Positions 1,684-33,419 of a stretch of DNA of 34,790 nucleotides are shown here, piece after piece; position 1 is the stretch's first letter; each line of letters begins with the position of its first letter. This stretch comes from Marinifilum sp. D737 (GTDB taxonomy: Bacteria; Bacteroidota; Bacteroidia; Bacteroidales; Marinifilaceae): assembly GCF_026672275.1 (NCBI RefSeq), contig NZ_JANQCD010000043.1, positions 1 to 34,790 of the forward strand, read 5' to 3'. Made by a program: the position numbers and the translations under genes. The notes under the pieces are model-generated. The model ran no database searches and was not told the origin of the DNA. It saw only the letters and a list, made by a program, of their open reading frames with translations.

Positions 1684-1695
1684 TGACTGAAAAAA

Positions 1696-4410: not shown

Positions 4411-4414
4411 AACT

Positions 4415-6508: not shown

Positions 6509-6538
6509 AGAAAGATTAGTGAATTTCAAGTCATAACC

Positions 6539-6934
6539 TCATCTATACCTCTGAACTTTGGGATCGACCTCTACAGACCAGCGGTCGATTCCACCTTTTA
6601 AATTATAAACACGAGAGAATCCATTTTTTCGAAGATAATTCATAACCTGCTTGCTTCGTATTCCCATATGGCAAAAAACAACTAAATCTTTATCCTTTGG
6701 TAGTTCTTCCATTTTGGAAGGAATATCTCCCATCGGAATATGTCTGGCATTTTCCAAATGGCAAATTTGAACTTCGACAGGTTCGCGAACATCAAGCATT
6801 ACCATATCTCTTCGTTTCTCCATTTCCTGAAGAATTTCAAGAGGAGTAAACTCTTTTCTATCCAAAGTATCGTCTTTTATTCTAAAAATCACATCATTAT
6901 ATTTTGCGTTTACAGTAAAGATAAGCAGTTCCAT
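6539..6934 (-). CDS. Rhodanese-like sulfurtransferase (copy 1)
   Basis: A 131-aa single-domain cytoplasmic rhodanese. The substrate-side motif VMLDVREPVEV (about 45-55) and the active-site loop VFCHMGIRS give catalytic Cys88, followed by KQVMNYLRKNGFSRVYNLKGGIDRW, the conserved end of the fold. Single rhodanese domains carry persulfide sulfur from a donor to an acceptor thiol; the partner is unknown here. The start at 6934 gives N-terminal MELLIFTVNA, which resembles the MNIFTSN start of the second rhodanese at 25274-25627. The two share the IPMG, LPKDKD, FCH-G-RSKQV-NYLRK and LKGG blocks and are clear paralogues flanking the efflux region. It converges on the preceding + gene with a 30-bp gap and no clear terminator. 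Confidence 0.92.
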   Translation of the reverse strand: MELLIFTVNAKYNDVIFRIKDDTLDRKEFTPLEILQEMEKRRDMVMLDVREPVEVQICHLENARHIPMGDIPSKMEELPKDKDLVVFCHMGIRSKQVMNYLRKNGFSRVYNLKGGIDRWSVEVDPKVQRYR

Positions 6935-7135: not shown

Positions 7136-8020
7136 ATGCAAATTAAAATAGACTCTTTGAGTAAAATTTACCCTAATGGCAAAAAGGCTCTTGACAACAT
7201 CAATTTAGAAATTGGCAACGGCATGTTTGGTCTATTGGGTCCAAACGGTGCTGGTAAATCCAGTTTAATGAGAATATTAGTAAGCCTAATGCAAGCTTCG
7301 GAAGGCAATGTGTATTACGATGAATACGACCTTGTTAAAGACCGAAAGGAAATTAGGAACATGCTTGGTTACTTGCCACAGGATTTTCGATTTTTCACAA
7401 AATTAAAAACCTGGGAATTTTTAGACTATGCCGCATCACTAGCAGGAATTAGAAGTAAAAAAGTAAGAAGGGCAAAGGTTGATGAATGGCTAGAAAAAGT
7501 GGGTTTGTTTGATGTAAGAGAACGTGACGCAAACAAACTCTCCGGAGGAATGAAAAGAAGATTGGGTATTGCTCAAACTTTAATTGGCGATCCTAAAATT
7601 ATCATTGTTGATGAACCAACAACAGGCCTTGATCCAGAAGAACGAATCCGTTTCAGAAATATATTATCCGAAATTAGTCAGAAAGATGTTATCATCATTC
7701 TCTCCACACATATCGTAGGCGACATTTCAAGTGTTTGCAACAATTTGGCTCTTTTAAATACTGGAAAACTTGCCTTTAATGGTTCTCCACAGGAATTAAT
7801 CGAACAAGCAAAAGGACATGTTTGGCAAGTAAATACTTCAGGTTATGAATACGATTTAATCAAAGAACAGTACGCTGTGGTGTCAACTATTCCAACTAAA
7901 GATGGTTGGGAGGTTCAGTTAATTGGAGATGGTAGCAATTTTAAAAATGCCATTGAACTAGAACCTAACCTTGAACATGCCTATGTGTATTTTATGGAAA
8001 AATCAGCAACCTTAATTTAG
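7136..8020 (+). CDS. ABC transporter ATP-binding protein (ABC-2/NatA type)
   Basis: A 294-aa cytoplasmic ATPase that powers an ABC-2 exporter. Motifs in order: A-loop tyrosine in LSKIY (Y12), Walker A GPNGAGKS (K41), Q-loop in GYLPQD (Q82), signature LSGGM (135-139), Walker B IIIVDEP with catalytic Glu160, D-loop GLDP, and H-loop THIVGD (H192). The C-terminal ~70 residues form the usual extra regulatory region of this class. It is the first gene of the operon, 7 bp before its permease partner. Its core (IGNGMFGLLGPNGAGKS) is almost identical to the ATPase domain at the end of the RND fusion at 17237-21979, so the two arose by duplication. The substrate is unknown. Confidence 0.95.
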   Translation: MQIKIDSLSKIYPNGKKALDNINLEIGNGMFGLLGPNGAGKSSLMRILVSLMQASEGNVYYDEYDLVKDRKEIRNMLGYLPQDFRFFTKLKTWEFLDYAASLAGIRSKKVRRAKVDEWLEKVGLFDVRERDANKLSGGMKRRLGIAQTLIGDPKIIIVDEPTTGLDPEERIRFRNILSEISQKDVIIILSTHIVGDISSVCNNLALLNTGKLAFNGSPQELIEQAKGHVWQVNTSGYEYDLIKEQYAVVSTIPTKDGWEVQLIGDGSNFKNAIELEPNLEHAYVYFMEKSATLI

Positions 8021-8027
8021 AATTTAC

Positions 8028-11000
8028 ATGCTTTCTCTACACACCATACAATCCGTAGCCAAATACGAAACCAAAACATTGCTTCGTTCATGGTTTTTTA
8101 GAATTTTCGCCATAATGGCCATCCTTTTTATAGGAGGTTTTAATATTGCTGCTTTTGTTGAAGGTAGCAATGCTCCCTGGATTTACCGGGCCTTGCCTGC
8201 TGCTATTCCTTACGCCAATCTTATTATTCTTAATCTTGGACAAGCCATTGTTGCAGTCTTTTTGGCATCGGAATTCTTAAAGCAAGACAGTAAAAATGAT
8301 ACTGTTGAAGTGATTTATGCCCGTTCAATGACCAATAGCGAATACATTTTAGGCAAATCCCTTGGCATCATCATGGTGTTTGTAATTCTGAATGTAATCA
8401 TGCTGCTTATGGGGATCGGTTTTTCCTTTCTAAGTAACGAATCATCACAAAGCATTTGGGTACTTTTATATTACCCTCTTTTAATATCAATACCCACACT
8501 TGTCTACATATTAGGATTGGCTTTCTTCATGATGATTTTACTAAAGAATCAAGCCATTACATTTATTGTTTTATTGGGTTATATCGCTTTAACCATCTTT
8601 TATCTAAACACAAAAGTCTACCAAATATTCGATTATATTGCCTACCAGATTCCCATGATGAATTCAACAATAGGCGGATTTGGAAACATATTTGAAGTGG
8701 CGATTCACAGAGGAATCTATCTATTTTTAGGAATTGGGTTGATACTATTTACCATTTGGAAACTACCACGTCTTCCTCAATCGAAAAGATTGGTTTCCTT
8801 ACCTATTTATTTGGCACTAATAAGTTTTGCCATAGCAGGTGGCCTAAGCTATAAATATCTGGATATTAAGATAGGAAGTGAAAAATACAGAGACAAGCTG
8901 ATTTCAATAAACAACCAGTATGTTGATTACGCAAAACTTGAAGTTAGCAAGTGTAACTTACACCTAACGCACCTTGGTGATCAAATTCAAGCTTCAGCAA
9001 AAATCATAGCCAAAAACAATTCTAAGCAAAGTATAGACACACTAATATTTAGTTTAAACCCACAACTTAAAATCAACTCTGTATCAATCGATAACAAGCC
9101 TGTTCAATTTCTTCGAAACGAACAGTTAATAAAAATTGTTCCGAAGAACAAAATTGCGATAAACAAAGACCTTAACATTCAATTCGATTATGCAGGTAAA
9201 ATAGATGAAAGAACACACTTTTTAGATTCTGATCCTAACTTGATAAGGGACAACTTTACCGCAGAAATGTTTAGAATTAGAAAAAGAAATTCATACCTAA
9301 AAGACGATTTTGTTTGCCTGACAAGCGAAGCACTTTGGTATCCGATTTCAGGAGTGGGTTATTCTTCTCTTTATCCAAGTTTATATTCTCCTGATTTTGC
9401 AGAATTCAAATTACATGTAAAAACCCAGGAAAACTTAACAGCAGTATCGCAAGGCAAGCCAAGCAAAACAAATGCTGGTGAATTTTCTTTTGAACCTGAA
9501 TATGCTTTACCTCAGATCAGTTTATTAATAGGCGATTATCAAAAACAAAGTATTGATGTTGATTCGGTTGAATATTCGATTTATTCAATCAGGGGAAATC
9601 AGTTTTTCCTAAAGCACTTTGATGTCATTCAAGATAGTCTTCCATCTTTAATACGAGAGCTTAAAAATGAGTATGAAACTTCACATGGTTACTCCTATCC
9701 TTTTAAAAGGTTGTCAATGGCCGAAGTACCAATTCAATTCTCGCTAGACAAACACAATTGGTCAATTGCCAGCAATGCCATACAGCCTGAAATTATTTTC
9801 TATCCTGAAAAGGGAGTTGTAATGGAAGAAACTGATTTTAAAAATCGCAGAAAGCGCTTTGAGAGACGAATGAAAAGGGATAATGAAGAAGTTTCTGAAG
9901 AAGAATTACAGGCGCGAATTTTTAAACGCTTCATTCGTGGTAATTTAATGCCACCACCAAATGAGTGGTATCAATTCGACCATGTCGATAGAAATACATT
10001 CTCTATTTTCCCAAATTACTTTTCTTATTCATCTGGTATATCATCGAAAGAAATACCTGCATTAAATACAGCATTAGGGGTTTATATCAAGGAAAATAAC
10101 GAAGTATCACAAAACTTCTCACGTTGGCGCTGGCAAGGAATCAGCAAAGCCGAAAGAATTAATCTACTTCTTAAGAACTCTTCGCTTAAAGATATTGCTG
10201 ATATAAAAATTCCTAAGGCAGATGATTCAGATGATCAAATCATATTAAACGATATTTTAAGAGTAAAAGGCAAGCATTTGTTCTCTCTTTTTAAAGCCAG
10301 ATATGGCGAAGATAAATTCAACAAGGTGCTTAAGGAATTTATTGAAACAAATCGTCACCAAAAGTTCGATTTCTCTCAATTCGATAGCCTTTTGTTGGCC
10401 AACTTTAATTCATCTGTAAAATCGGAAATTGAAGATTGGTACACCACGACCAAATTGCCTGGCTTTTTATTAAAAGATCTTCAAACCTACAAGGTTAAAG
10501 ATGGTGATCACATTAAATATCAAATTCGATTTAAAATTTCGAATCCAGAATCGGTTGATGGAATTGTAAGCGTTATTATTGAAACTGGTGGACAAAATAA
10601 CCGATTCAGAAGAAGAGGCGGAGGAAACAAAAAACCTGATTTCACAAAATCCATATTTATTCCTGCTCATTCTGCTAAGGAAGTCGGATTTGTATTTCCA
10701 TCAGAACCTGGCAGAATGAATGTCTTTACTCACCTTTCTGAGAATCTTCCGAACAGTCTGGTCTATGATTTTAGCTCATTTGCCGAAACCAAAAGAAGCA
10801 AGTTCTTTAATGAAACCCAGGAGTGTGAGGTTTTTGAGGGTGTTTTAGATGCCAATGAATTTGTTGTAGACAATGAAGACAAGGGATTTGAATACATACA
10901 GGTTTCTAACAAAAGCCAATTAAAACAATGGGTTGATAGCCGAAGAGATGATATTGAAGAATATGCCAGATTAAGAACCTGGAATCCCCCAAATGAATGG

Positions 11001-11375
11001 AAAAATGTGCTACGATCGGGCTTCTTTGGGAAGTATGTACGCTCAGCATTTTTTACAAAAACAGGTATTGGAGACAGAAGTGCCAGCTGGAAACCTGAAT
11101 TAAAAAAACCTGGGTACTACGATGTGTTCTGCCACGTGAATAAGATTGAGCAATATTGGGGCCGAAGAAAAAAAACAAAAACAGATTACAACTTTAAGAT
11201 CTATCATGAAGATGGATTTGAGGAGGTGAATAAATCCGATCAGGAACTGGAAAATGGTTGGAACTATTTGGGCAGTTACTATATCACTCCCGAAACCGCA
11301 AAAGTTGAATTAAATAACAAATCGGTTGGTGCATACTTATTCGCCGACGCAATTAAATGGGTAGAAAACAAATAG
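8028..11375 (+). CDS. ABC-2 permease fused to an inactive M1-peptidase-like domain and golvesin-like tail
   Basis: A 1115-aa inner-membrane protein. Residues 1-~285 hold an ABC-2 permease with six or more hydrophobic segments (AIMAILFIGGFNIAAF, LGIIMVFVILNVIMLLMGI, FIVLLGYIALTIFYL, LVSLPIYLALISFAIAGG). A long periplasmic part follows, of the kind annotated as permease/M1 aminopeptidase in Bacteroidetes, with an M1-like beta-rich region (about 300-520) and a catalytic-like region. I find no HExxH zinc motif in the latter: the stretch after IIFYPEKG continues into a charged helix with FERRMKRDNEEVSEEE. The last ~150 residues resemble a golvesin C-terminal domain (GFFGKYVRSAFF, ASWKPELKKPGYYDVF, ENGWNYLGSYY, AYLFADAIKW). 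It is the partner of the ATPase 7 bp upstream. Peptidase activity is unlikely; a binding or structural role is inferred. Confidence 0.85.
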   Translation: MLSLHTIQSVAKYETKTLLRSWFFRIFAIMAILFIGGFNIAAFVEGSNAPWIYRALPAAIPYANLIILNLGQAIVAVFLASEFLKQDSKNDTVEVIYARSMTNSEYILGKSLGIIMVFVILNVIMLLMGIGFSFLSNESSQSIWVLLYYPLLISIPTLVYILGLAFFMMILLKNQAITFIVLLGYIALTIFYLNTKVYQIFDYIAYQIPMMNSTIGGFGNIFEVAIHRGIYLFLGIGLILFTIWKLPRLPQSKRLVSLPIYLALISFAIAGGLSYKYLDIKIGSEKYRDKLISINNQYVDYAKLEVSKCNLHLTHLGDQIQASAKIIAKNNSKQSIDTLIFSLNPQLKINSVSIDNKPVQFLRNEQLIKIVPKNKIAINKDLNIQFDYAGKIDERTHFLDSDPNLIRDNFTAEMFRIRKRNSYLKDDFVCLTSEALWYPISGVGYSSLYPSLYSPDFAEFKLHVKTQENLTAVSQGKPSKTNAGEFSFEPEYALPQISLLIGDYQKQSIDVDSVEYSIYSIRGNQFFLKHFDVIQDSLPSLIRELKNEYETSHGYSYPFKRLSMAEVPIQFSLDKHNWSIASNAIQPEIIFYPEKGVVMEETDFKNRRKRFERRMKRDNEEVSEEELQARIFKRFIRGNLMPPPNEWYQFDHVDRNTFSIFPNYFSYSSGISSKEIPALNTALGVYIKENNEVSQNFSRWRWQGISKAERINLLLKNSSLKDIADIKIPKADDSDDQIILNDILRVKGKHLFSLFKARYGEDKFNKVLKEFIETNRHQKFDFSQFDSLLLANFNSSVKSEIEDWYTTTKLPGFLLKDLQTYKVKDGDHIKYQIRFKISNPESVDGIVSVIIETGGQNNRFRRRGGGNKKPDFTKSIFIPAHSAKEVGFVFPSEPGRMNVFTHLSENLPNSLVYDFSSFAETKRSKFFNETQECEVFEGVLDANEFVVDNEDKGFEYIQVSNKSQLKQWVDSRRDDIEEYARLRTWNPPNEWKNVLRSGFFGKYVRSAFFTKTGIGDRSASWKPELKKPGYYDVFCHVNKIEQYWGRRKKTKTDYNFKIYHEDGFEEVNKSDQELENGWNYLGSYYITPETAKVELNNKSVGAYLFADAIKWVENK

Positions 11376-11392
11376 ACAAACACTATAATAGC

Positions 11393-12886
11393 ATGATTCT
11401 TAACAAGCTTACATTAAAAACATTCGCTTTAACAGGATTTTTATTCATCGGTTCGTTTTATGCTTCGGCACAAAAGGAACTCACTTTGGAAGAAGCCCTT
11501 TTAATAGCATTCGACAACAGTCCTGACATTAAAAAATCAAGGATTAATATGCAACAGAATAAGGAACGTTTGAATGCTCAGTTGGCATCATTGCGTTCTA
11601 GATTCTCATTTGATGTTACGCCAATTTCATACGAAAAAACCGAATCGTATAATGAGTATTTTTCTACTTGGAATACTTCAGAAAATAAAGGTGCCAGCGG
11701 AACTTTTACCGTTTCTCAACCTATTAAATTAACAGATGGTAAATTGTCGTTACGAAATGAATTTGGGTATCAGGACAATTCATCAGAAGCAAGTGGTTCT
11801 TCTTATTCTGGTTATAACAATTCGTTGTACATGCAGTACGATCAGCCGATTTTCACCTTTAACAAAACCAAAATGGATCTAACTCGAAACGAGTTGAATC
11901 TGGAAAATGCAACTCTTTCCTATTCCATTCAGATGCTGAATATCGAGCGTCAGGTAAATCAGGCATTCTATAACATTTACCAAAAACAAATGGCCTTAAA
12001 AATTTCTGAGGAAGAATACGAAAATCAGAAAATCAGCAAAGAAATTATTGCAAGTAAAGTAGAAGGAGGACTTTCGGCCAAGGAAGAATTGTACCAGGCA
12101 GAATTAAACCTGGCGACTAGTAAATCTAATATGGACAACAACCAAGTTGAACTTGAGAATGCAAAAGATGACTTCAAACTACTACTAGGAATTTCTCTTT
12201 ACGAGGACATCGCAGTTTCTACCAATATTCAATACGTTCCTGTAATTGTGGATCTTGAAAAAGCCATTCAAAATGGATTAAGCCAAAGGTTGGAACTTAC
12301 CCAAAGAGAAATTGATTTGAATAATGCAAAATTCGACTTGATTGAAACCTCATCAATTAATGAATTTAAGGGAAATATCAGCCTTTCAATGGGGATAATG
12401 GGAAATAACAAAAACCTGGCCGATGTTTACGACAAGCCAACTAAAAGCCCACGAGTTGGTGTTACGTTCTCTATCCCGATTTTCGATTGGGGTGAAAGAA
12501 GAGCAAGAATCAGAGCAGCAGAATTGGAAGTGGAAAGTAGACAGATCGATAAAAACAGTTTGAAAGACGATATTACCATCAACATCCGAAAAACTTATCG
12601 CAACCTTCAAAACCTCATTCAACGAATAGAAATTGCCAAGCAAAATGAGAAAAATGCTCAGTTAACCTACGATATCAACCTGGAGCGATACAGAAACGGA
12701 GATTTAACGAGTATCGACCTTGAGCGATTCCAAAATCAACTTTCAGGGAAAAAAATGGAACTTGCCAATTCTTTAATAAGATACAAACTTGAACTGTTAA
12801 ATCTTAAAATTCAATCACTTTGGGATTTCGAAAAAGATCAATCATTTGTACCACTAGAGTTACAAGAGAACTTAAAAATGAACTAA
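11393..12886 (+). CDS. TolC-family outer-membrane efflux channel
   Basis: A 497-aa exported outer-membrane factor. The ATG at 11393 starts a signal peptide (MILNKLTLKTFALTGFLF, cleaved after YASA), whereas the earlier ATG at 11357 lies inside the upstream permease gene and would spoil it. Mature start KELTLEEALLIAFDNSPDIKKSR is the canonical beginning of the first OEP repeat. The second repeat is seen at VTFSIPIFDWGERRARI and NLERYRNGDLTSIDL. Long heptad-like helices between them fit the periplasmic alpha-barrel. It would form the exit duct used by the adaptor and RND proteins encoded just downstream. It is the only channel gene in the operon, so it may serve both RND pumps and perhaps the ABC exporters (inference). 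Confidence 0.95.
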   Translation: MILNKLTLKTFALTGFLFIGSFYASAQKELTLEEALLIAFDNSPDIKKSRINMQQNKERLNAQLASLRSRFSFDVTPISYEKTESYNEYFSTWNTSENKGASGTFTVSQPIKLTDGKLSLRNEFGYQDNSSEASGSSYSGYNNSLYMQYDQPIFTFNKTKMDLTRNELNLENATLSYSIQMLNIERQVNQAFYNIYQKQMALKISEEEYENQKISKEIIASKVEGGLSAKEELYQAELNLATSKSNMDNNQVELENAKDDFKLLLGISLYEDIAVSTNIQYVPVIVDLEKAIQNGLSQRLELTQREIDLNNAKFDLIETSSINEFKGNISLSMGIMGNNKNLADVYDKPTKSPRVGVTFSIPIFDWGERRARIRAAELEVESRQIDKNSLKDDITINIRKTYRNLQNLIQRIEIAKQNEKNAQLTYDINLERYRNGDLTSIDLERFQNQLSGKKMELANSLIRYKLELLNLKIQSLWDFEKDQSFVPLELQENLKMN

Positions 12887-12927
12887 TTTAAAAATCAATA
12901 CTAATTCAAAATATAATGGCCTTAACA

Positions 12928-13977
12928 ATGAAACGACTTGCATTTTTACTTTTAGGAGCTACACTTTTCGCTTCTTGCGATGATAAAAAAGCTGATTTAA
13001 ATAAGGATATCGCAATTCAGGTATCCGTAAAGGAAATTGCACCCAAAAGCATCGAAAAATATATCAGTACAACAGGTACAGTAGAACCAATCAAAACGGT
13101 GAGTTTAAAATCGGAAGTTGCCGGTAAATACCAGCTTCAAACCAATCCTCGTACCGAAAGAAAATTTCAATTGGGAGATTACGTAAAAGAAGGAACTGTT
13201 GTAATTCAGCTTGAAGACAAGGAATATGAAAATAATATCAAAATCAAATCCTTAGAACTACGATTGGAAATTTCCAAACAGACTTTCGAAAAACAACAGT
13301 CGCTTTACAAAAAAGGAGGAGTGACTCTTTCTGAATTAAAGAATGCTGAAATTGAATTGATAAATGCCAAATATTCATACGAGGATGCCATATTCCGATT
13401 GGAGAAACTAAAAGTAAAAGCTCCATTTTCAGGAACCATTACCAACCTTAACTATTATACCCAAAACACCAGAATCGAAGCAGCTTCTCCTGTTCTAAAC
13501 ATGATGGATTACAGCAAACTTCACATGGAAATTAATCTTGCTGAGAAAAACATTTCCATGATTAAAACTGGTCAGCCGGTTAATATCGTGAACTATACCA
13601 TTCCTGGCGATACTTTAAATGGAGTGCTTGCTCAACTTTCACCAGCCATTGATGCCGAAACACGTTCGTTCAAAGCGGTAATTGACATCAACAACTCAAA
13701 ACTATTGTTACGCCCCGGGATGTTTGCCAAGGGAGAAATTGTTGTTGCCAAAGCCGATTCTGCTCTTGTAATTCCTAAAAATGTAATTCTAAACAAACAA
13801 AAAGGAAACGTTGTTTTTGTTGTTCACAAAGGACTGGCAGAAGAGCGTGTAATTGAATTTGGCTTAGAAAACCCAAATGAAGTGCAAATTGTTTCAGGAT
13901 TGGAAAAGAAAGATCGATTGGTTGTTAAAGGTTTTGAAACGCTTCGAAATCGTTCAAAAATTAAGATTGTAAAGTAA
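12928..13977 (+). CDS. RND efflux periplasmic adaptor (membrane fusion) lipoprotein
   Basis: A 349-aa adaptor linking the inner-membrane pump to the TolC channel. The start at ATG 12928 places a lipoprotein signal MKRLAFLLLGATLFAS before Cys17; an ATG four codons earlier (12916) is possible. Visible parts are a split lipoyl/barrel-sandwich domain (STTGTVEPIKTVSLKSEVAG, then LKVKAPFSGTITNLNYY), a helical hairpin between them (RLEISKQTFEKQQSLYKKGG), and a beta-barrel (PAIDAETRSFKAVIDI, LLLRPGMFAKGEI). The membrane-proximal domain is at the C-terminus (VVFVVHKGLAEERVI). It is separated by 6 bp from the RND gene and is the only adaptor in the operon. Confidence 0.95.
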   Translation: MKRLAFLLLGATLFASCDDKKADLNKDIAIQVSVKEIAPKSIEKYISTTGTVEPIKTVSLKSEVAGKYQLQTNPRTERKFQLGDYVKEGTVVIQLEDKEYENNIKIKSLELRLEISKQTFEKQQSLYKKGGVTLSELKNAEIELINAKYSYEDAIFRLEKLKVKAPFSGTITNLNYYTQNTRIEAASPVLNMMDYSKLHMEINLAEKNISMIKTGQPVNIVNYTIPGDTLNGVLAQLSPAIDAETRSFKAVIDINNSKLLLRPGMFAKGEIVVAKADSALVIPKNVILNKQKGNVVFVVHKGLAEERVIEFGLENPNEVQIVSGLEKKDRLVVKGFETLRNRSKIKIVK

Positions 13978-17236: not shown

Positions 17237-20200
17237 ATGAACTTCATTATAAAAAGAAAGGTTTTAATTGCCATGCTCTTCGCAGGATTAAGTATGCTGG
17301 GATATTTCTCCTACAAGCAGCTACCTGTCGAATTGATTCCCAATGCAAACCTTCCTATGCTCTTTGTTCAGGTTGGTACCGGTATCGAGGTGGATCCACG
17401 ATATATGGAAAATCAGGCAATTATACCTTTAGAAGGAGTTGCCGGAAGCCTTGAGGGAGTTGAGAAAATAGAATCAACTGCAGGACAGCAACGCGGAAGC
17501 ATCGAAATTTCTTTTGAACAGGGCACAAATATCAAGTACGCCTATTTAAAACTTGCCGAAAAGGTGGAGGAAGTCAAAAAAGATCTTCCCCAGGAATTTC
17601 AGGTTCAGGTTTTAAAATTTGACATGGAACAACTCAACAACATGTTCATGAACATTCAGGTTCGCGGAAGTGGTGGAGTGGACCGTGTGCGACAAATCAC
17701 CGAAAATGAAATCCTCGATAAAATCCAAAACATTGATGGCATTGCCAATGCAGCAATATTTGGTGGTCGTGAAAAATCAGTAGAAATATTGCTTCGCGAT
17801 GATGTGTGTAAGAGCTATGGAATTAGTCCTTCCGATGTTCGAACGGCACTGAATAACAATGGCAACATTCGACGTTTTGCAGGAAAGGTAATCGATAAAG
17901 ATCAACTGAATTTTGTAAATGTGGTTTCCCAGTTCTCTGATATCAACGAGCTACATGAGTTGGTTGTACAGGAAAAGGGAGATATCCGTTTAAAGGATAT
18001 CGCTTACATTCATTACGGGGTAAAAACTCAAACTTCCTACAGTCGTGTAAATGGTAAGGAAGCGGTAACCCTGCAATTGACCCGCGATGCTCAGTCAAAC
18101 ATCATTGATTTATCGGAGGTCACCCTTGCCAAAATTGATGATCTAAACAAAGAACTAAAGACCAAAGATATAGAAATGGTTGTTCAGCTAAATATGGCTG
18201 AAACCATGAAAACCAATATCGATTTAATCATCGAACTGGCCCTGGTAGGAGGTGTGTTGGCAATATTTATCCTATGGATTTTCTTAAAAAACTTGCGATT
18301 GGTAACTGCAATTGCTTTGGCAATTCCAATCTCGGTTTACACTGCTTTCAACTTCTTTTATGCCTACGGAATCAGTATCAATACACTAACGCTGTTGGGA
18401 ATGGCCCTGGCCATAGGTATGCTCCTCGATAATAGTATTGTCGTCCTCGAGAACATATACCGACTGGCTGCACAAAAGAAAGATGCAAATACGGCAGTAA
18501 TTCAGGGAACCAAGGAGGTTTGGCGCTCAATCTTCGCAGCAACCCTAACCACCATAACGGTATTCCTGCCATTCGTATTTTCATCCAATTTCCTAATCGG
18601 ATTAATGGGCAAGCACATTGGTGTTTCCATCATTTCTACCCTATTGGTATCCTTGGTGGTGGCTTTGCTGTTGATTCCTATGATTACGCACAGCTTTTTA
18701 AGACGTAAAGGAAAATTTCAGGAGATAAACTTTGAGAATATCTCCTATCACAACCGATTGGTACAGGTGTACCTGGTATTGCTAAAATCTTGCATGCGTC
18801 ACCCGGGAAGAACCGTTGTGGGCGCTTTAGGTTTATTCTTCATCACTTTACTGATCAGTTTGGGATTAAGCTTTATTTCTGCTGAAGAAACCGAAAACAA
18901 AGACCTAAACCTATATGTAAACCTTCCGGGAGGTACCACACTTGAAAATACCGATCTGTTTGTTCAGCAGATAGAAGAAAAGTTGGCCTCACTCGAGGAG
19001 AAGAAAGATATCACCAGCCAGATTTACGAAGAGGAAGCCATGCTTACCATTAGCTTGGTAGATGATTATCGCGAAAAGCAAAATTTAAGCATTCCTGGCA
19101 TCAAGAAAAACATCATGGAACGCCTTGACGGCTTGCCTCGCTCCTCTTTTAGCTGGGAACCTCCGGCACGAGGAAGAAGGTTTGGTGGCGGCGGAGGCGA
19201 TGGCTTCGGTGGCGACGATCCATTCATGGAAATGCTGGGTATCGGAAGTCAAAAAGAAAAGCTGATTATTAAAGGTCAGAATTTCGATAAGATGCTTAAC
19301 CTTTCGGAAGATTTGGACTATTACCTTAACCAGCTTACCTCCATTAAGAATGTGAATGTACGCATTCCTTCCAAACGACCTGAATTGGTTTTGGAATTGG
19401 ACAAGCAGGTAATGGCTTTGTATGATATTCCTGTGAGTGCGGTTTTATCGGAGCTGAACTCTTTCCCAAAAGAGTTTTCGAGTAATGTTATGTTTAAGGA
19501 AGGAAACGAAGAGTACGATATCGTTATTAAAACCCTTGGTGAGAATCCTGAAATCACGCGAAATGCACAAGATCTGCGCAAGCTAACTGTTCGAGGAACT
19601 CAAGGGGCAGAATTCGAATTGGAAAATATCAGTAAATTCAATTTTACCGATGGCTTGTCTACCATTAAGCGAACCAACCAGGAAAAACAGCTGGTGGTTT
19701 CTTATCAATTTATCGATGAAGTAAACGATGACAAGGACCTTCTTACCGCTGCACGAGTAGAAATCGACGAAATCATTGGAGGAATGACCTTGCCTTCGGG
19801 ACTGGCCGTTGAAATTGTTCACGAGGAAAACAGCTTGGGCGAATTTGGCTTCCTTTTCCTTATGGCATTTATTCTTATTTTCATGATTCTGGCATCGGTT
19901 TTCGAATCGTTTAATATGCCAATTGTAATGATGTTCTCGATACCAATGGCTGCCATTGGTTCATTGCTTGCCCTGATACTTACCGGAACCTCATTGATGA
20001 ATGCCAATGTGTTTACAGGTCTTATTATTTTGCTGGGAATTGTGGTAAACAACGGAATCATCATGATCGATTATTCCAATGTGCTTCAAAAAAGAGGTTA
20101 CCGACAATCCAGAGCCTTAATGATGGCAGGTTTGGCGCGTATACGTCCGATTTTAATTACAGCCATTACCACCATTATTGCCTTAATGCCATTGGCACTG

Positions 20201-21979
20201 GGACGAGCTGAATATGTAACGCAAATTGGTGTTCCGTTTGCCATTACGGTAATAGGAGGATTAAGCTTAAGTACCATCTTAACTTTGGTATTCATTCCAA
20301 CACTTTATACCGGATTACAAACCAGCTTAAACTGGATGCGCAATCAGCAAGTTTGGGTTAAAGTAATACAATTTGGCATTTGGATAGCCGGAGCCTATTT
20401 CATATACACCGAGGTAGACAGTAAAATCTGGCAAATCATCGATCTATTGGTACTTCTGTTATCGGTACCTGCCTGTATTTATTTTATTCAGGCAAGTTTG
20501 CGCAAAGCCAACGAAGAGCTCATTGCTGCCGATGACGAATTGCAAATCCAGATCCGAAATCTTGTAAAAATATACGATTGGGATGGCAGGTTTATGCGCG
20601 AATGGAAATCAGGATTAAGAATAAGAGAACGTTTGGGATTAAAACACTCTTACACCCGCTTGCGCGATTTCTTAACTCTGATATGGCAATTGCCACTAAT
20701 CGCCTTCATGATCTTTTTCATCTATTTCCATTTGCAAAGTAAATTTTGGTTGGTTTTCTTATCCATCAACTTCCAAATTATGCTTTTGTATTTCATGGCG
20801 CCAATTATGGAATACAAAAAACACCTAATGGAAAAGGGCAAAAGCAAATTGGGCAGAATCGTAATCAACCTGTTCCATAAGTTCATTTACTGGATTTTCC
20901 CATTGGCTGTATTGGCTTATTTCAACAGCAAATACGAATTAATCGGCTTGACCATTCCGGTTGCGGTACTGTGGTATTTTGCCTTGCTGATTAAGAAAAC
21001 ATCAGACAAAATTTATCGCGAAAAAATCAATATCAACCGATTAACAGGAAGGTTTAAAGGAATACGCAAATTCTTCTACCGATTCGTATTGATTATCCCA
21101 ATCATCGGGAAACAGAAGGTTCCTTTTAAAGCGGTAAAGAGCGTTTCTTTCGACATTGGCAACGGTATGTTTGGATTGCTGGGACCTAACGGTGCCGGTA
21201 AATCAACCCTAATGCGTATTGTTTGTGGAATACTGGAACAGAGTTACGGACAAATCACCATTAATGGCATTGACGTACGTGAAAAAAGAGAAGAACTGCA
21301 AGGCTTGATCGGTTACCTTCCTCAGGAATTTGGCATGTACGAAAACATGACCGCCTGGGATTTTCTGAACTACATGGCCATCCTGAAAAAGATTCACAAT
21401 ACCGAAGTACGCACAGAGCGTGTTCGATACGTGCTGGATGCAGTGCACATGCTCAAGAACAAAGATGAGAAAATTGGATCCTTCTCGGGTGGTATGAAAC
21501 AGAGAATTGGAATTGCTCAAATCTTGCTTCACCTGCCAAGAATTCTTGTGGTAGATGAGCCGACAGCAGGTCTTGATCCTCGCGAACGAATCCGTTTCAG
21601 AAACCTTTTGGTTGAGCTGAGTAAGAAACGAATTGTGATCTTCTCTACTCATATTATCGAGGATGTAGCAAGCTCGTGTAACCGGGTGGCGGTAATGAAA
21701 AAAGGAGAACTGAAATATCTTGGTGAACCTGTTCATATGGCAGGAATTGCCAACGAAAAAGTTTGGATGTTGAAGATTTCGCCTGAAGAATTTGAACAGT
21801 TTAAGAAAGAACACGTGATTATTCATCACATGCGCGATAAGGATCATATTCGAGTAAGATGCCTATCGGATGAAGATCCGGGATACGGAGCAGTGAATAC
21901 CAAAGCAAATCTCGAAGATGCATATTTGTGCTTGTTGAATGACAGCAGCGAGCAAAAAATAACCATGATGAATGTGTAG
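17237..21979 (+). CDS. RND permease fused to a split ABC ATPase domain (1580 aa)
   Basis: A single open frame encodes a complete RND pump plus an ABC ATPase. I chose ATG 17237 (MNFIIKRKVLIAML), three codons after an in-frame TTG. Residues 1-~1030 form an RND permease (relay motif GMLLDNSIVVLENIY with D398; glycine-rich insert GRRFGGGGGDGFGG in the second periplasmic loop; 12 TM). Two extra TM segments follow (about 1038-1085). At 1102 an ATPase domain begins (LQIQIRNLVKIYDWDGR), but it is interrupted at about 1119-1296 by ~180 residues with about four TM segments. It resumes with FKAVKSVSFDIGNGMFG, Walker A GPNGAGKS (K1322), Q-loop GYLPQE, signature FSGGM, Walker B VVDEP (E1441), GLDP and H-loop THIIED. 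All ATPase motifs look intact. It is likely an inner-membrane machine coupling proton and ATP use, or an RND protein that hosts the ATPase of the downstream ABC-2 permease (inference). Confidence 0.9.
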   Translation: MNFIIKRKVLIAMLFAGLSMLGYFSYKQLPVELIPNANLPMLFVQVGTGIEVDPRYMENQAIIPLEGVAGSLEGVEKIESTAGQQRGSIEISFEQGTNIKYAYLKLAEKVEEVKKDLPQEFQVQVLKFDMEQLNNMFMNIQVRGSGGVDRVRQITENEILDKIQNIDGIANAAIFGGREKSVEILLRDDVCKSYGISPSDVRTALNNNGNIRRFAGKVIDKDQLNFVNVVSQFSDINELHELVVQEKGDIRLKDIAYIHYGVKTQTSYSRVNGKEAVTLQLTRDAQSNIIDLSEVTLAKIDDLNKELKTKDIEMVVQLNMAETMKTNIDLIIELALVGGVLAIFILWIFLKNLRLVTAIALAIPISVYTAFNFFYAYGISINTLTLLGMALAIGMLLDNSIVVLENIYRLAAQKKDANTAVIQGTKEVWRSIFAATLTTITVFLPFVFSSNFLIGLMGKHIGVSIISTLLVSLVVALLLIPMITHSFLRRKGKFQEINFENISYHNRLVQVYLVLLKSCMRHPGRTVVGALGLFFITLLISLGLSFISAEETENKDLNLYVNLPGGTTLENTDLFVQQIEEKLASLEEKKDITSQIYEEEAMLTISLVDDYREKQNLSIPGIKKNIMERLDGLPRSSFSWEPPARGRRFGGGGGDGFGGDDPFMEMLGIGSQKEKLIIKGQNFDKMLNLSEDLDYYLNQLTSIKNVNVRIPSKRPELVLELDKQVMALYDIPVSAVLSELNSFPKEFSSNVMFKEGNEEYDIVIKTLGENPEITRNAQDLRKLTVRGTQGAEFELENISKFNFTDGLSTIKRTNQEKQLVVSYQFIDEVNDDKDLLTAARVEIDEIIGGMTLPSGLAVEIVHEENSLGEFGFLFLMAFILIFMILASVFESFNMPIVMMFSIPMAAIGSLLALILTGTSLMNANVFTGLIILLGIVVNNGIIMIDYSNVLQKRGYRQSRALMMAGLARIRPILITAITTIIALMPLALGRAEYVTQIGVPFAITVIGGLSLSTILTLVFIPTLYTGLQTSLNWMRNQQVWVKVIQFGIWIAGAYFIYTEVDSKIWQIIDLLVLLLSVPACIYFIQASLRKANEELIAADDELQIQIRNLVKIYDWDGRFMREWKSGLRIRERLGLKHSYTRLRDFLTLIWQLPLIAFMIFFIYFHLQSKFWLVFLSINFQIMLLYFMAPIMEYKKHLMEKGKSKLGRIVINLFHKFIYWIFPLAVLAYFNSKYELIGLTIPVAVLWYFALLIKKTSDKIYREKININRLTGRFKGIRKFFYRFVLIIPIIGKQKVPFKAVKSVSFDIGNGMFGLLGPNGAGKSTLMRIVCGILEQSYGQITINGIDVREKREELQGLIGYLPQEFGMYENMTAWDFLNYMAILKKIHNTEVRTERVRYVLDAVHMLKNKDEKIGSFSGGMKQRIGIAQILLHLPRILVVDEPTAGLDPRERIRFRNLLVELSKKRIVIFSTHIIEDVASSCNRVAVMKKGELKYLGEPVHMAGIANEKVWMLKISPEEFEQFKKEHVIIHHMRDKDHIRVRCLSDEDPGYGAVNTKANLEDAYLCLLNDSSEQKITMMNV

Positions 21980-22045: not shown

Positions 22046-22753
22046 ATGAAAGCAATAGAACAAATAAAACTCATAACAGACTTTGTTCTCTACAATGTGA
22101 AAATCATATTTGCGAATAAATTCATCTATTTTCTGATAGCAGCCTTCGCCTTCTTCTTTATGGTTATGGGCATCATGCTATTTACAGATTCTAGTCCCGA
22201 TGAGTCGGATATTTACACAAGCTTAATTTTCCCGGGAATATTGATCCTCTTTTATCCGGTGATCTATATCATCCAAAGCGATAAGGATACCCGAATGCTC
22301 GAAATTCTATTCGGAATTCCCAATTACCGATACAAAGTTTACCTGGTACGTTTTGCATTAAGCGTTCTCTTACTGGTATCACTAATGTTTTTAATGTCGT
22401 GGTTAACGGTCTTTCTGGTAATCAAGATTGATGTATTCCATATGGTTTACGAGCTGATGTATTGTCTCCTGTTTTTGGCAAGTTTGGCATTTTTGCTCAC
22501 CACTTTAATTAAAAATGCAAGTGGAGCAGCTGTAGTCATGGTGGTTTTAGGATTGGTATTTCTGATACTGGCCGAACCTTTACAATACAGCAAGTGGAAC
22601 ATCTTTCTAAATCCTTTTAACGTTCCGGGCGATATGAGTTACACCATCTGGCAAAATGTACTGTATCAAAATCGCATGATGCTAATTATAGGTTCACTAA
22701 TTACCATTCTGTGGAGCTTAATCAACCTGCAACGCAGAGAAAAGTTCGTATAA
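22046..22753 (+). CDS. ABC-2 type permease
   Basis: A 235-aa inner-membrane protein. The ATG at 22046 is preferred to a TTG seven codons upstream, which falls in the palindromic repeat. About six hydrophobic segments are visible: FIYFLIAAFAFFFMVMGIM, LIFPGILILFYPVIYII, FALSVLLLVSLMFLMSWL, LMYCLLFLASLAFLLTTLI, AAVVMVVLGLVFLILAEPL and MLIIGSLITILWSLINL. The KDTRMLEILFGIPN loop after TM2 is typical of ABC-2 permeases, corresponding to the DTVEVIYARS loop of the permease at 8028. There is no peptidase-like extension. Its ATPase partner is probably the domain fused to the RND protein immediately upstream, which would mirror the ATPase-permease pair that opens the operon. It is the last gene of the operon. 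Confidence 0.85.
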   Translation: MKAIEQIKLITDFVLYNVKIIFANKFIYFLIAAFAFFFMVMGIMLFTDSSPDESDIYTSLIFPGILILFYPVIYIIQSDKDTRMLEILFGIPNYRYKVYLVRFALSVLLLVSLMFLMSWLTVFLVIKIDVFHMVYELMYCLLFLASLAFLLTTLIKNASGAAVVMVVLGLVFLILAEPLQYSKWNIFLNPFNVPGDMSYTIWQNVLYQNRMMLIIGSLITILWSLINLQRREKFV

Positions 22754-23071: not shown

Positions 23072-23090
23072 GATTTTATAGTTATATTTG
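23060..23090 (+). promoter_or_regulatory. Promoter of the BlaI/BlaR1-like pair
   Basis: TATATTTG at 23083-23090 fits the Bacteroidetes -7 consensus TAnnTTTG exactly. A GTTG at 23060-23063 lies 19 bp upstream, the expected -33 spacing. The ATG at 23109 is 18 bp downstream, giving a short leader. The -33 element is inside the second operator dyad. Confidence 0.6.
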
Positions 23091-23108
23091 ATTAAAATAT
23101 TTTGCAAA

Positions 23109-23474
23109 ATGAAGAAGTTAACACAGAAAGAAGAGGAAATTATGAAATTATTTTGGGCCGAAGGTCCGATGTTTGTAAAAGAACTTCAGAAAATCTTTCC
23201 CGATCAGAAATTACACTACAATACCCTATCGACCATGGTAAGAGCTTTGGAAGAAAAATCATTCATCGCTCATGAGACCTTTGGAAAAACGCATCGCTAC
23301 TATGCTGCCATTACCGAAGAAGAATATCACAAAAAAACCATGGGGAATGTAGTTAAAAAATACTTCGACAACTCTTACAAAAGAGTAGTATCCATGTTTG
23401 TTGAAGAAGAGAAACTATCCATCGACGAGCTGAAAAGATTAATTCAGGACATTGAAGACAATAAAGACAAATAA
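23109..23474 (+). CDS. BlaI/MecI-family transcriptional repressor
   Basis: A 121-aa winged-helix repressor. The ATG at 23109 gives MKKLTQKEEEIMKLFWAEGP, the standard family N-terminus; a TTG seven codons upstream overlaps the promoter and is rejected. The recognition region LHYNTLSTMVRALEEKSFIAHE and the wing GKTHRYYAAITEEEYHKK are clear. The C-terminal helices (SMFVEEEKLSIDELKRLIQ) form the dimerisation arm whose cleavage inactivates the repressor in known BlaI/MecI systems. It overlaps the sensor gene by 1 bp, so the two are translationally coupled. Two operator-like dyads lie in its promoter. It may control only its own pair, since I see no copy of the dyad upstream of the efflux operon. 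Confidence 0.93.
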   Translation: MKKLTQKEEEIMKLFWAEGPMFVKELQKIFPDQKLHYNTLSTMVRALEEKSFIAHETFGKTHRYYAAITEEEYHKKTMGNVVKKYFDNSYKRVVSMFVEEEKLSIDELKRLIQDIEDNKDK

Positions 23475-25192
23475 TGCTGTTTAGTTTTATTACATACATG
23501 ATAAAAACAGGTATTGGCCTGGCATTTTTCTACCTTCTGTTCAAATTGTTGTTGAGCAGAGATGGAAGACATGCCTACAAAAGGTTGATACTTCTGCTAT
23601 CGGTAGGTGCTGCTTTTACAATACCGCTGCTGGCCAATATGATTCCCGCTAGCGAGATAAATTCTACCCCAATGGTAAAAGTTCGGGAACTTATTGAATT
23701 GCCATTGGTGGAAACTGGCATAAGCGACAGCACACCTCTCGAAACGACAGGCAAAATAAGCCATACACATCAAATAAATTGGTATGTGCTGATTTACCAA
23801 TTGGTTCTGATTCTGCTGTTCCTGCGTTTCCTGCTATCCTATATAAACATTTTTAAATGGCTAAAACAAGCCAACATACAATCCTATAAAAATTTACTAC
23901 TGGCGATTGTACAAGATAACATACAGGCATTCTCGTTTTGGAAATACATTGTACTCTCAAAACAAGATTACCAGAACAATAAAACTCCAATTCTTCTGCA
24001 CGAAGAAGCACACCTAAGGCTGCATCATTCATACGATGTAATCTTAATGGAACTGGTTTGTTTTCTGCAATGGTTCAATCCATTTGCATGCTTATTGAAA
24101 AAGGAATTAAAACTGGTTCACGAATTTCAGGCCGATCAGGCCGTACTCAAATCTGGCATCGATGCAACACAATATCAACTGTTGATTTTGGAAAAAGCTG
24201 TAGGCAAAAGACGTTTTGCTTCAGCAAATCATTTCAAACAAGGTTCAATCTCAAAACGAATTAAGATGATGAAAAAGAAACAATTATTACGATGGAGCGT
24301 TGCAAAAACCCTACTCTTTTTACCTGCAGGATTCCTGCTTTTACAGGCATTTGCCAATCCGAAAGTAAGTGAAAAGGTAAATACTCTGCCTGCTCTCATA
24401 GTTCAGGCCAAGGATAGTGAATCGTGGCTTAAGGAATGGCGATATGACAATATCGAAAATTTAAATGCTGGTGTTTTCTTTGGCAAACAGCCTGCCCACA
24501 AACCCGATTTAAGTTGGAAGTTAAGACCCATTAAACAAAGAAATGTTTTACAGGTATTGCAAAACAAACGCGGTGATATTCTTATAAACGGGCAATTGGT
24601 AGCCAAAAAAAATCTAAAAGCCATTGCAAAATCATTTATCAGTGGTAAAAACCATTGGAACAATGCCCATCCTGAAATGGCTGTAAGCAAATTGAGCAAT
24701 GGCAAATCGGCAAAGGTAAACCAGCTTGCCATTAGCTACCAAGTTGACAGGGCTACTCCAAAAGAAGCCATTGCCAAAAGCATGCAAGCCTTTGGGAAAG
24801 CTTACCTGGAAGTGCGATCGGAAAAAGCACAAGAGCTGTTTGGAAAGGATTACTTTCAGTTGTCGGATACACAGCAATTGGAAATTGATGAAAGAGTTCC
24901 GATCCGCATCGCGCCTTTCACAGCCGTTAAAACTTCTGCCAATGCAGTTGACATCAGAATTACAAAGGAAGGAATCTTTATCGATCAGAAAAAATGTGCG
25001 TTAAGCCTTATCGAAGAGAGAACAAAAGCTTTGGTACAAAACAAAAACCGATCGCTTGCCGAAATCAGAGTTCTCGATCCAGCAATCAATAAGGACACCA
25101 TTGAAGAAATCAAAAGACAAGTCCGAAATGCGGGCATCAAAAGAATTAACTATTCCGGCGTAATGAGTGTAGTGGAAACTCCCGCCAGGTAG
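23474..25192 (+). CDS. BlaR1-like M56 metallopeptidase with tandem ExbD-like C-terminal domains
   Basis: A 572-aa inner-membrane zinc peptidase partner of the repressor. The N-terminal half has hydrophobic helices (MLFSFITYMIKTGIGLAFFY, LILLLSVGAAFTIPLLANM, WYVLIYQLVLILLFLRFLL), then the zinc site HEEAH (176-180) and the third-ligand motif EFQAD (from Glu217). A last TM segment follows (about 275-297, LLFLPAGFLLLQAFA). The ~275-residue periplasmic tail has no penicillin-binding domain. Instead it carries two stretches resembling ExbD/TolR periplasmic domains: VLQNKRGDILINGQLV with ISYQVDRATPKEAIAKSMQ and AYLEVRSEKAQELFG, then DIRITKEGIFIDQKK with IEEIKRQVRNAGIKRINYS. In BlaR1 systems the sensor detects a signal outside and triggers repressor cleavage; the signal here is unknown. 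Confidence 0.88.
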   Translation: MLFSFITYMIKTGIGLAFFYLLFKLLLSRDGRHAYKRLILLLSVGAAFTIPLLANMIPASEINSTPMVKVRELIELPLVETGISDSTPLETTGKISHTHQINWYVLIYQLVLILLFLRFLLSYINIFKWLKQANIQSYKNLLLAIVQDNIQAFSFWKYIVLSKQDYQNNKTPILLHEEAHLRLHHSYDVILMELVCFLQWFNPFACLLKKELKLVHEFQADQAVLKSGIDATQYQLLILEKAVGKRRFASANHFKQGSISKRIKMMKKKQLLRWSVAKTLLFLPAGFLLLQAFANPKVSEKVNTLPALIVQAKDSESWLKEWRYDNIENLNAGVFFGKQPAHKPDLSWKLRPIKQRNVLQVLQNKRGDILINGQLVAKKNLKAIAKSFISGKNHWNNAHPEMAVSKLSNGKSAKVNQLAISYQVDRATPKEAIAKSMQAFGKAYLEVRSEKAQELFGKDYFQLSDTQQLEIDERVPIRIAPFTAVKTSANAVDIRITKEGIFIDQKKCALSLIEERTKALVQNKNRSLAEIRVLDPAINKDTIEEIKRQVRNAGIKRINYSGVMSVVETPAR

Positions 25193-31960: not shown

Positions 31961-33287
31961 GTTGTGCTTAATTTAAAAAAAAACAGAAATTGAAACGAAC
32001 AATATTTTATTCTTGGCAATCTGACCTTCCAAATAATTCTAACCGAGGGTTTATTGAATCATGCTTGACTAAAGCTATTAAACAGGTTAATCATATTGTA
32101 CCATTTCAATTAGAATTCAATATTGATAGGGATACCCAGTCTGAGATCGGGACACCAAATATCTTAGATTCAATATTTAAAAAAATAGAGCGCTCAAAAG
32201 TTTTTATAGCTGATATTTCGATTATTAACCCCGATAGCGAATATAGGAAGTGTCCAAATCCTAATGTACTTATTGAATTAGGTTATGCAGCTCGTGTATT
32301 GGGCTGGGAAAGAGTTTTTTGTTTTTATAACACCGATTATGGAAACATCGAAGATTTGCCTTTTGATTTAAGGCAAAGGCGTCCAATTCAATATAGTTTA
32401 AAAGGGAAAAATAAGTCGGAAGTACGAAACTCAATATCCAAAATTCTTGCAGAATCAATAGCACAGTTACATAAGAATGGTGGTCTATTTGATAAAATCG
32501 ACGACTACATGAAAGAGAAAATTGATACAGAATTATTAACTATTGCAGGTCACTTAGGTAAAATACTGTTTGGTTATAACGGTAAATCAGCACCTGAATT
32601 ATTACAGTTAGTAATGAATCTTTCAGATGAAGAAATTGAAACGTCAATAAAATCACAAGAATTCATTGGATTTCAAATATTCAAGAATTTAAATGTACAT
32701 GAAAAGAATCTTCGAGTAATTGCTGATAGCTTAATCTCTTCTGTGCACCATAACAGAGAAATGACGCGCCCTATTATTGAATTGGTAAGTTGGGCAGGTA
32801 GATTTGATGCATTAAATTCTCCTAGAAATGAATTTCAATGGTTTAAGAAGCTTGACTCGAAAACTCAAGAATATAGAGTTGCTCCACCTTCACAATTTGC
32901 AAAAAATGACAAACTCCCTAATCGTTTTGTATTATTGAAGAATTTAAATGAAAAAGAAGGAGTTGTAGTTGATTTTGGAGATTTCATTTATAAACCAAGA
33001 GTTCAAAACTTAACGACCCGTTTCAAATTTGATGACAAAAACATTAAAACTTTTGTTTCCATCATAAGACATTTTATTACAGCTACAGAAGATTGGCTGG
33101 ATTTGACAAATGGTGAAATCATAATTGATTTTCATCACAACTTTGAAATAAAAACAAACTAAGCACAACACACGCTCATAAATAATTGCCGAGGTTGTAG
33201 GTATTCAAAGGTCTCTAGCTCGCATAAACTGCGATTAAACTTGAAAATAAAACACTTCGTAACCGGCAACTATTCATAGCGCAAAAC
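31961..33287 (+). mobile_element. Integron-like gene cassette 1 (TIR-like protein)
   Basis: The unit begins with GTTGTGCTTA (31961-31970) and its 3' recombination-site-like region begins with the exact reverse complement TAAGCACAAC (33160-33169). In integron cassettes the 5' core (R'') of attC is complementary to the first bases of the same cassette, because they meet when the cassette circularises, so this match is diagnostic in form. The unit holds one gene and a 3' attC-like region, ending at the G of the next GTTAGGG core (33288). No integron integrase is visible in the window. Confidence 0.6.
31990..33162 (+). CDS. TIR-like domain protein, candidate anti-phage NADase-type effector
   Basis: A 390-aa soluble protein. 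The start is TTG 31990 (MKRTIFYSWQSDLPNNSNRG): an in-frame stop lies at 31969-31971, no ATG intervenes, and the family typically begins right at this strand. Residues 1-~140 form a TIR / deoxyribosyltransferase-like nucleotide-binding fold: FYSWQSDLP, NIDRDTQSEIGTPNI, VFIADISIINPDSEYRKCPN, and NPNVLIELGYAARVLGWE with the conserved glutamate at the position that is catalytic in TIR and NDT enzymes, then LPFDLRQRRPIQYSL. The remaining ~250 residues are an unassigned sensing or effector part. Proteins with this head often occur in defence islands and some TIR enzymes consume NAD; activity here is inferred. It is carried on a cassette-like unit and its stop codon overlaps the R'' core of the downstream attC-like site. 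Confidence 0.75.
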   Translation: MKRTIFYSWQSDLPNNSNRGFIESCLTKAIKQVNHIVPFQLEFNIDRDTQSEIGTPNILDSIFKKIERSKVFIADISIINPDSEYRKCPNPNVLIELGYAARVLGWERVFCFYNTDYGNIEDLPFDLRQRRPIQYSLKGKNKSEVRNSISKILAESIAQLHKNGGLFDKIDDYMKEKIDTELLTIAGHLGKILFGYNGKSAPELLQLVMNLSDEEIETSIKSQEFIGFQIFKNLNVHEKNLRVIADSLISSVHHNREMTRPIIELVSWAGRFDALNSPRNEFQWFKKLDSKTQEYRVAPPSQFAKNDKLPNRFVLLKNLNEKEGVVVDFGDFIYKPRVQNLTTRFKFDDKNIKTFVSIIRHFITATEDWLDLTNGEIIIDFHHNFEIKTN

Positions 33288-33294: not shown

Positions 33295-33305
33295 GGCATA
33301 AAAAA

Positions 33306-33390: not shown

Positions 33391-33419
33391 TTCAAGCAGG
33401 AAGTTTTGTATCTTTGAGT

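Follow-up and report, generated by a model that had tools for sequence, protein, structure and literature searches.

An RND permease and an ABC ATPase in one reading frame, with membrane segments inserted in the putative ATPase domain, in an efflux operon of Marinifilum sp. D737

Organisation of the operon

The window, by which we mean the whole stretch of DNA that was analysed (34,790 nucleotides, contig NZ_JANQCD010000043.1 of Marinifilum sp. D737), holds seven co-directional genes that are separated by -19 to 112 bases (Table 1). In order, these encode a stand-alone ABC ATPase (from 7136), a permease with an M1-like domain (8028), a TolC-type outer-membrane efflux protein (OEP, 11357), a periplasmic adaptor (12916), an unfused RND permease (13984, here the second RND), the RND–ABC fusion and a further permease (22046). 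Partner genes were counted only in loci that reach far enough. The adaptor and the TolC-type protein were present in all such loci, which satisfies the gene complement of a tripartite pump, and the M1-like permease was present in 56/58. By a distance rule the second RND was found in 62 of 64 loci; in the two exceptions (L117 and L126) an RND frame is present outside that distance. A clear stand-alone ATPase was seen in 17 of 18 homologous stretches long enough to cover its position, the exception being L047 (18543-18944; 406-807 in L149), where a 134-aa frame has only a 33-residue, 32-bit ATPase match. In L047/L149 the stand-alone ATPase could be lost, broken or misassembled.

Table 1. Coordinates of the operon genes and of the parts of the fusion protein in the window
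Feature	Position	Strand	Basis
Stand-alone ABC ATPase, 294 aa, first operon gene	7136..8020	+	ABC_tran, E 4.5e-30; canonical motifs
ABC-2-like permease with large M1-peptidase-like domain and Golvesin_C domain	8028..11375	+	Golvesin_C, E 5.8e-11
TolC-type outer-membrane efflux protein (OEP)	11357..12886	+	PF02321, E 8.5e-45; 58/58 loci
Periplasmic adaptor (membrane fusion protein)	12916..13977	+	HlyD_D23, E 1.6e-20; 60/60 loci
Second, unfused RND permease, 1046 aa	13984..17124	+	ACR_tran, E 2.9e-209
RND–ABC fusion protein, 1580 aa	17237..21979	+	ATG at 17237 to stop at 21979, frame open
RND permease part, residues 1–1030, 12 TM	17237..20326	+	ACR_tran and hydropathy
Two extra TM segments between RND and ATPase, residues 1039–1084	20351..20488	+	Hydropathy; model helices
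First ATPase strand and A-loop Tyr1113, residues 1102–1113	20540..20575	+	Window scan, model, conserved Tyr
182-residue ATPase insertion with conserved flanks and four TM, residues 1114–1295	20576..21121	+	Alignment, hydropathy
ATPase remainder (Walker A, Q-loop, signature, Walker B, H-loop), residues 1296–1580	21122..21976	+	ABC_tran
Six-TM ABC-2-type (type V) permease	22046..22753	+	PF12698 below threshold; six segments; fold

The protein encoded at 8028-11375 has seven hydrophobic segments in its first 273 residues, and its M1-like domain is without the HExxH zinc motif. Its matches to Peptidase_M1 (E 0.0097) and ABC2_membrane_2 (E 0.076) are both below cut-off, and comparison with PDB sequences returned nothing at 0.01. 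The M1-like/Golvesin_C part may have a periplasmic binding or structural role.

The surroundings of the operon were also recorded. It adjoins genes of the RecO and RdgB (Ham1) clusters in eight of 14 homologous regions (L137, L138, L140–L142 and L147–L149), and RsgA is also beside it in seven of the 14; the cluster names rest on Pfam matches of members from two or three loci. The RecO/RdgB neighbourhood suggests a fixed chromosomal place for the operon. Directly after the operon, at 23088-25192 of the window, lie a BlaI-type repressor and an M56/BlaR1-type protein. We considered these as general regulators of the operon and dropped the idea, since BlaI is near the fusion in only 6/64 loci and the arrangement is therefore probably local. 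Upstream of the operon, a TonB-receptor-like protein (1696-4410), which has a carboxypeptidase-regulatory domain and matches FecR_C weakly, is kept in place in three of the 14 regions, all from near relatives. Towards the end of the window (31990-34460), a weak CAP12/Pycsar TIR match just below cut-off is followed by a Fic protein that matches the SoFic defence model, and these are possible defence genes.

Domain layout of the fusion protein

A preliminary description of this DNA had claimed that a single frame of 1580 residues joins an RND pump to an ABC ATPase, and this is borne out: the frame is open throughout and both domains are matched in Pfam. Residues 2–1025 match ACR_tran (PF00873, E 1.2e-161, profile positions 3–1018 of 1021) and residues 1301–1444 match ABC_tran (E 5.6e-28). 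The profile coverage, together with 12 hydrophobic segments, qualifies the first part as a full-length RND permease. A Met aligns with the start codon in 17 of 18 fetched homologues whose sequence extends to the N-terminus, L048 being the exception. When the whole fusion was compared with NCBIfam, none of the best 25 of 192 matches attained its own cut-off.

Hydropathy gives 18 TM segments, comprising the 12 of the RND part, two ahead of the ATPase (residues 1039–1057 and 1066–1084) and four within it (1145–1163, 1172–1190, 1208–1226 and 1234–1252). The four segments inside the ATPase had been named in the preliminary description and are upheld, whereas the two ahead of it had not been named there. 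The ATPase carries the motif set of its family, namely Walker A (1316–1323, at the end of FDIGNGMFGLLGPNGAGKS, residues 1305–1323), a Q-loop, a signature (1416–1423), Walker B from 1437 with the catalytic Glu E1441, and an H-loop (1470–1476). The catalytic motif residues are invariant in 81 aligned sequences, in agreement with the earlier statement that the ATPase motifs look intact.

The predicted split of the ATPase domain

The first ATPase strand and the A-loop Tyr (LQIQIRNLVKIY, residues 1102–1113) stand apart from the rest of the domain, which begins at residue 1296, with 182 residues and four TM segments between them, much as had been described. In contrast, just five residues, PNGKK, separate the A-loop Tyr of the stand-alone ATPase (7136-8020) from the Ala with which its following strand starts. 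Measured against this short spacing, the insertion of the fusion falls in the first β-hairpin of the ATPase, and the insertion point proposed by comparison with this stand-alone protein stands. At E 0.05 no Pfam family matched the insertion of the window's own protein; among 21 homologous rows, two gave one weak Pfam match each.

The displaced element is conserved. In a set made up of the window's protein and 20 homologues gathered without regard to the motif, from 20 of the 33 genomes matched by the junction query described below, the A-loop Tyr is kept in 21/21 and lies 186–202 residues ahead of Walker A, so none of the 21 sequences has the contiguous domain of an ordinary ABC ATPase. The strand letters vary among the 20 homologues (NLVKIY, NLTKIY and NLVKVY), and the Tyr is also kept in six further genomes found by profile, one of them with NVVKIY. 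A larger scan that kept the best 80 loci was seeded with the peptide pattern IxNLVKIY[GDE], and the invariance of the A-loop letters in those 80 loci is therefore by construction.

We then asked how well the displaced segment fits an ATPase, using a profile of three stand-alone ATPases of the same genome and scoring the ATPase core either alone or preceded by each 16-residue window of residues 1028–1295. This was done for the window's own sequence and 19 of the 20 homologues, L036 being omitted for a 3' frameshift. Residues 1100–1115 ranked first among 236–252 windows in 20/20 sequences, with a gain of 11.6 to 16.1 bits, and the runners-up were overlapping neighbours.

An AlphaFold model of residues 1028–1580, built with 78 sequences, had a mean pLDDT of 80.5 and a pTM of only 0.56. 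In this model residues 1104–1112 form a strand and no other strand occurs before residue 1298, near which the next one starts, so the partner of the displaced strand must be in the ATPase. That the strand pairs within the ATPase is thus an inference from the secondary-structure string of the model and not from its coordinates; the assignment as the A-loop strand rests on the scan rank and the modelled strand. The long helices of the model span residues 1039–1059, 1063–1092, 1151–1165, 1169–1200, 1204–1233 and 1236–1261. Foldseek returned TM_1403, PH0203, ABCA4 and NosDFYL chains as the best matches, as ABC ATPases, with TM-scores on the query of about 0.35, since the query is longer than its matches.

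The window scan, the modelled strand and the invariant catalytic motifs support the reading of a split ATPase. The structure prediction proposed in the preliminary description, made here for the C-terminal part of the fusion alone, agrees with that reading at the level of secondary structure, and neither of the outcomes named there as refuting (a strand located elsewhere, or a frame broken by a stop or a frameshift between the RND and the ATPase) occurred in these data.

Conservation and distribution

Homologues were sought with a junction query of 256 residues that includes the insertion and excludes Walker A and the RND domain. It was matched in 33 of 57 genomes with the window's own included (32/56 without it). 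In 31 of these 33 the fusion is one open frame of 1558–1604 aa, and the remaining two frames start at contig bases 2 and 3; the same split, which the preliminary description had suggested searching for, thus recurs with the spacing from Tyr to Walker A given above. The junction is 98% identical to those of M. breve and M. flexuosum. In evenly drawn samples of the phylum and of the class, it was found in at least 6/395 genomes (E 1e-8) and at least 5/395 genomes (E 1e-5), respectively, own genome included; these are lower bounds, as at most six candidates were scored per genome. The fusion is rare in these wider samples.

The larger locus scan, made in named genomes, gave 264 pattern matches; 162 of these were relatives, of which the best 80 were kept. 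The whole fusion lies in one frame in 70 of these 80. Among the other ten, seven start at contig bases 1–3, L104 lacks roughly the first 50 positions of the profile, L106 begins only at position 358, and in L117 the protein is split over two frames. By their record titles, the best 80 of the 162 include Marinifilum, Labilibaculum, Ancylomarina, Prolixibacter, Sunxiuqinia, Mangrovibacterium, Odoribacter, Prolixibacteraceae and other Bacteroidales. A variant of 1640 aa (L054, L055 and L182, in the last at 1665-6584 on the minus strand) has a longer insertion, with 229 residues from the strand motif to Walker A, in an otherwise similar operon. Fifteen IMG/VR stretches fitted a pattern, and none of them encoded a viral relative of the fusion.

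No unfused protein closely related to the RND half was found in 60 genomes of the class, in which the 29 unfused RND matches given as loci are 24–27% identical to it. In the same 60 genomes we saw many Bacteroidia RND frames of 1435–1552 aa, longer than a plain RND, which are perhaps fusions with an outer-membrane efflux part.

The downstream permease

A permease gene lies directly downstream of the fusion in 71/71 loci that reach far enough. In the window its product matches PF12698 (ABC2_membrane_3) at E 2.6e-5, below cut-off, and 22 of 67 permease homologues match this family at 0.01. Comparison of its sequence profile with the PDB gave only two weak, unrelated matches (E 0.26 and 0.34), for which reason we turned to a comparison of folds. 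The model of the permease (pLDDT 84.1, pTM 0.81) had PmtCD and ABCG2 as its best PDB matches in Foldseek (E 0.018–0.031), with NosDFY and CcmABCD also found. No Foldseek match reached E 0.001, and 45 of the 50 matches listed are ABC exporters or CcmABCD. Six segments, a Pfam match below threshold and fold matches without a significant E-value identify the protein as a six-TM ABC-2 permease. That it forms one transporter with the fused ATPase is inferred, and only from their constant adjacency.

Proposed mechanism

At the level of sequence, the predicted architecture (an RND, two linker TM segments and a hairpin-split ATPase in one frame), its conservation and the set of operon genes are demonstrated. 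From these we propose that the fusion serves as a subunit of an export machine that spans the envelope and physically joins an ABC exporter to an RND tripartite pump, a reading towards which the balance of evidence leans, if only slightly. It is supported by the intact domains, the invariant motifs, the fit of the displaced strand and the nearly fixed partner genes, and also by the resemblance of the permease model to the TMDs of type V exporters, with weak E-values. Against it, operon linkage does not prove a complex, and the ATPase and the RND could act on different substrates.

In the proposed machine, the two ATPase pieces would fold into one working cytosolic domain. The C-terminus of AcrB is cytosolic, and with even numbers of TM segments (two and four) both pieces would lie on the side of the RND C-terminus. 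The fused ATPase would then power the adjacent six-TM ABC-2-type permease; that it drives this permease beside the RND conduit is the most likely arrangement by inference. The permease may take up a substrate, hydrophobic or peptide-like, from the cytoplasm or the inner leaflet and deliver it to the periplasmic side, from where the RND porter domains, the adaptor and the TolC-type channel would export it. The TM insert, together with the fusion to the RND, would clamp motor to pump so that both steps occur in one place.

The numbers of an RND trimer and an ABC dimer do not match unless the trimer consists of two fused subunits and one plain subunit, in which case it would supply the two ATPase domains of an ABC dimer. 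A plain RND accompanies the fusion in nearly every locus examined, and the available passages of one study report MdtBC, a pump with two RNDs, as a heterotrimer, MdtB2C1 (PMC7015380). Alternatively, the fused ATPase may pair with the stand-alone ATPase of the operon in a mixed ABC dimer, together with its permease. Sequence does not decide which ATPases pair, as both the fused and the stand-alone proteins have complete motifs.

Proton relay residues and the role of ATP

The RND part resembles the HAE-type RNDs (MdtB, CmeB, AcrB and MexB) in its whole-length RND match and in its operon with an adaptor and a TolC-type protein. CmeB aligns to fusion residues 2–1036, and MdtB is the best-scoring solved relative of the RND part, with its best stretch at 4–540. 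Unlike these proteins, the fusion has about 550 extra residues with six TM segments and the ABC ATPase, and it has Asn in place of both the second TM4 Asp and the TM10 Lys. In alignments with MexB and MdtB, D398 corresponds to the first TM4 Asp, N399 replaces the second and N938 replaces the Lys, so the fusion keeps one of the three residues of the AcrB/MexB type. In AcrB these residues form the proton relay, and AcrB fails without them.

These changes bear on an alternative in which ATP hydrolysis by the fused domain, transmitted via the inserted TM module, would power the RND directly, the proton relay being lost or weakened and the permease helping or having another role. D398/N399 and N938 are invariant in the fusion family (74/74 and 79/79 readable rows), and the second RND shares the change, with Asn at position 399 in 62/62 and, at position 938, Asn in 60/62 and Ser in 2/62. 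With Asn at two AcrB relay positions in each of the operon's RNDs, the proton side is on less sure ground than the preliminary description assumed, and ATP may do more than assist. For comparison we used the 28 readable unfused RNDs among the best matches of the 60 class genomes (29 rows, less L162, an antisense frame). The relay sets of these are D-D-K-E in ten, D-D-K-D in seven and other in 11, with Lys at position 938 in 21 and Arg in three; D-N occurs with Lys in four and D-N-S-D in one, and the set D-N-N-D in none of the 28. Three other RNDs of the window's genome keep Asp-Asp in TM4.

Ordinary RNDs with similar changes weaken the idea that ATP does more than assist, however. L005, one of the three other, unfused RNDs of the window's own genome, has Asn at the Lys position together with a TM4 Asp-Asp, and L181 (616-3741), the RND with D-N-S-D, lies in an RND–adaptor–OEP operon with no ABC genes on its 7.9-kb contig. 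Moreover, the first TM4 Asp (398) and an acid at the position of D945 are invariant in both the fusion family and the second RND, so the altered relay may still carry protons, and no mechanism is known to us whereby an NBD would drive an RND trimer. We consider direct energisation of the RND by the ATPase unlikely, although it is the leading alternative. A more elaborate proposal, which would amount to a new class of exporter, is held to be slightly less likely again: a heterotrimer of two fused RNDs and one plain RND with altered relays, in which the two split ATPases would dimerise over a pair of ABC-2 permeases, ATP and not, or not only, proton flow would power the RND trimer, and a two-fold cycle would be converted into a three-step rotation. 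That a single exporter couples proton energy with ATP energy, as raised in the preliminary description, is plausible but unproven.

Other explanations

The ATPase could instead be a regulator or gate, for which FtsEX-like systems are the model: ATP binding would switch the assembly or activity of the RND, or signal across the membrane, and the fused ABC part would move no substrate. The tight fusion and the TM clamp speak for this, intact motifs alone are no proof of transport, and the stand-alone ATPase with the M1-like permease could be the transporting ABC module. The six-TM ABC-2-type permease that follows the fusion in 71/71 loci is nevertheless a better fit to transport, and we regard a purely regulatory role as improbable. 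It is also improbable, and a shade more so, that two independent exporters are merely co-translated, with the fusion equalising their amounts and the parts acting separately. Each domain is intact and could work alone, but the 182-residue insertion with its conserved flanks and the unbroken frames in 31/33 genomes point to a mechanical use. Finally, a sequencing or assembly artefact, frameshift or chance frame through two genes can effectively be discarded, as nothing suggests it for the window itself, one frame is conserved in 31/33 genomes and 70/80 loci with seven of the ten exceptions at contig starts, and the broken frames of L036 and L117 look like draft errors.

Relation to known systems and significance

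The proposed joining of an ABC exporter to an RND pump can be set against several known systems. MdtABC and MuxABC likewise have two different adjacent RND genes and one adaptor in one operon, to which the present operon adds two ABC ATPases and two ABC-2-like permeases, with one RND carrying an ATPase. Among the ABC-2/type V exporters (NosDFY, PmtCD, ABCG and ABCA), the fused ATPase matches TM_1403, a NosDFYL chain and ABCA proteins, and the downstream permease resembles chains of PmtCD, ABCG2 and NosDFY; the putative NBD of the fusion differs in being split by four TM segments and attached to an RND permease. The ATPase fold of UvrA, SMC and Rad50 tolerates long insertions, which are soluble and lie between Walker A and the signature. 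The fusion shares a long insertion with these proteins, but its own is a predicted membrane module between the first two strands. The NBD of MacB is uninterrupted and N-terminal, unlike the split NBD of the fusion, and MacB is without an RND part. According to the available passages of one study, MacAB–TolC is, like the proposed machine, a tripartite pump with an ATP-driven inner-membrane transporter, its NBD being fused to the permease (PMC8277102).

Those passages of PMC8277102 contain no RND–ABC fusion, and the passages available from PMC10434189, in which RND, ABC and Bacteroidetes all occur, do not describe this operon. Among the titles and abstract openings listed in searches of open-licence PubMed Central papers, none names an RND–ABC fusion, a scope in which descriptions elsewhere could be missed. 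The parts are of known kinds and the sequences are already in public genomes; the combination and the place of the insertion are apparently undescribed.

RND and ABC exporters are regarded as distinct superfamilies, each with its own source of energy. With a conserved RND–ABC polypeptide, the coupling of ATP and protons in one pump becomes directly testable, as do the way in which a three-fold RND and a two-fold ABC motor fit together and the extent to which the ABC fold tolerates interruption. In the bacteria that carry this operon, two energy sources may feed one export machine.
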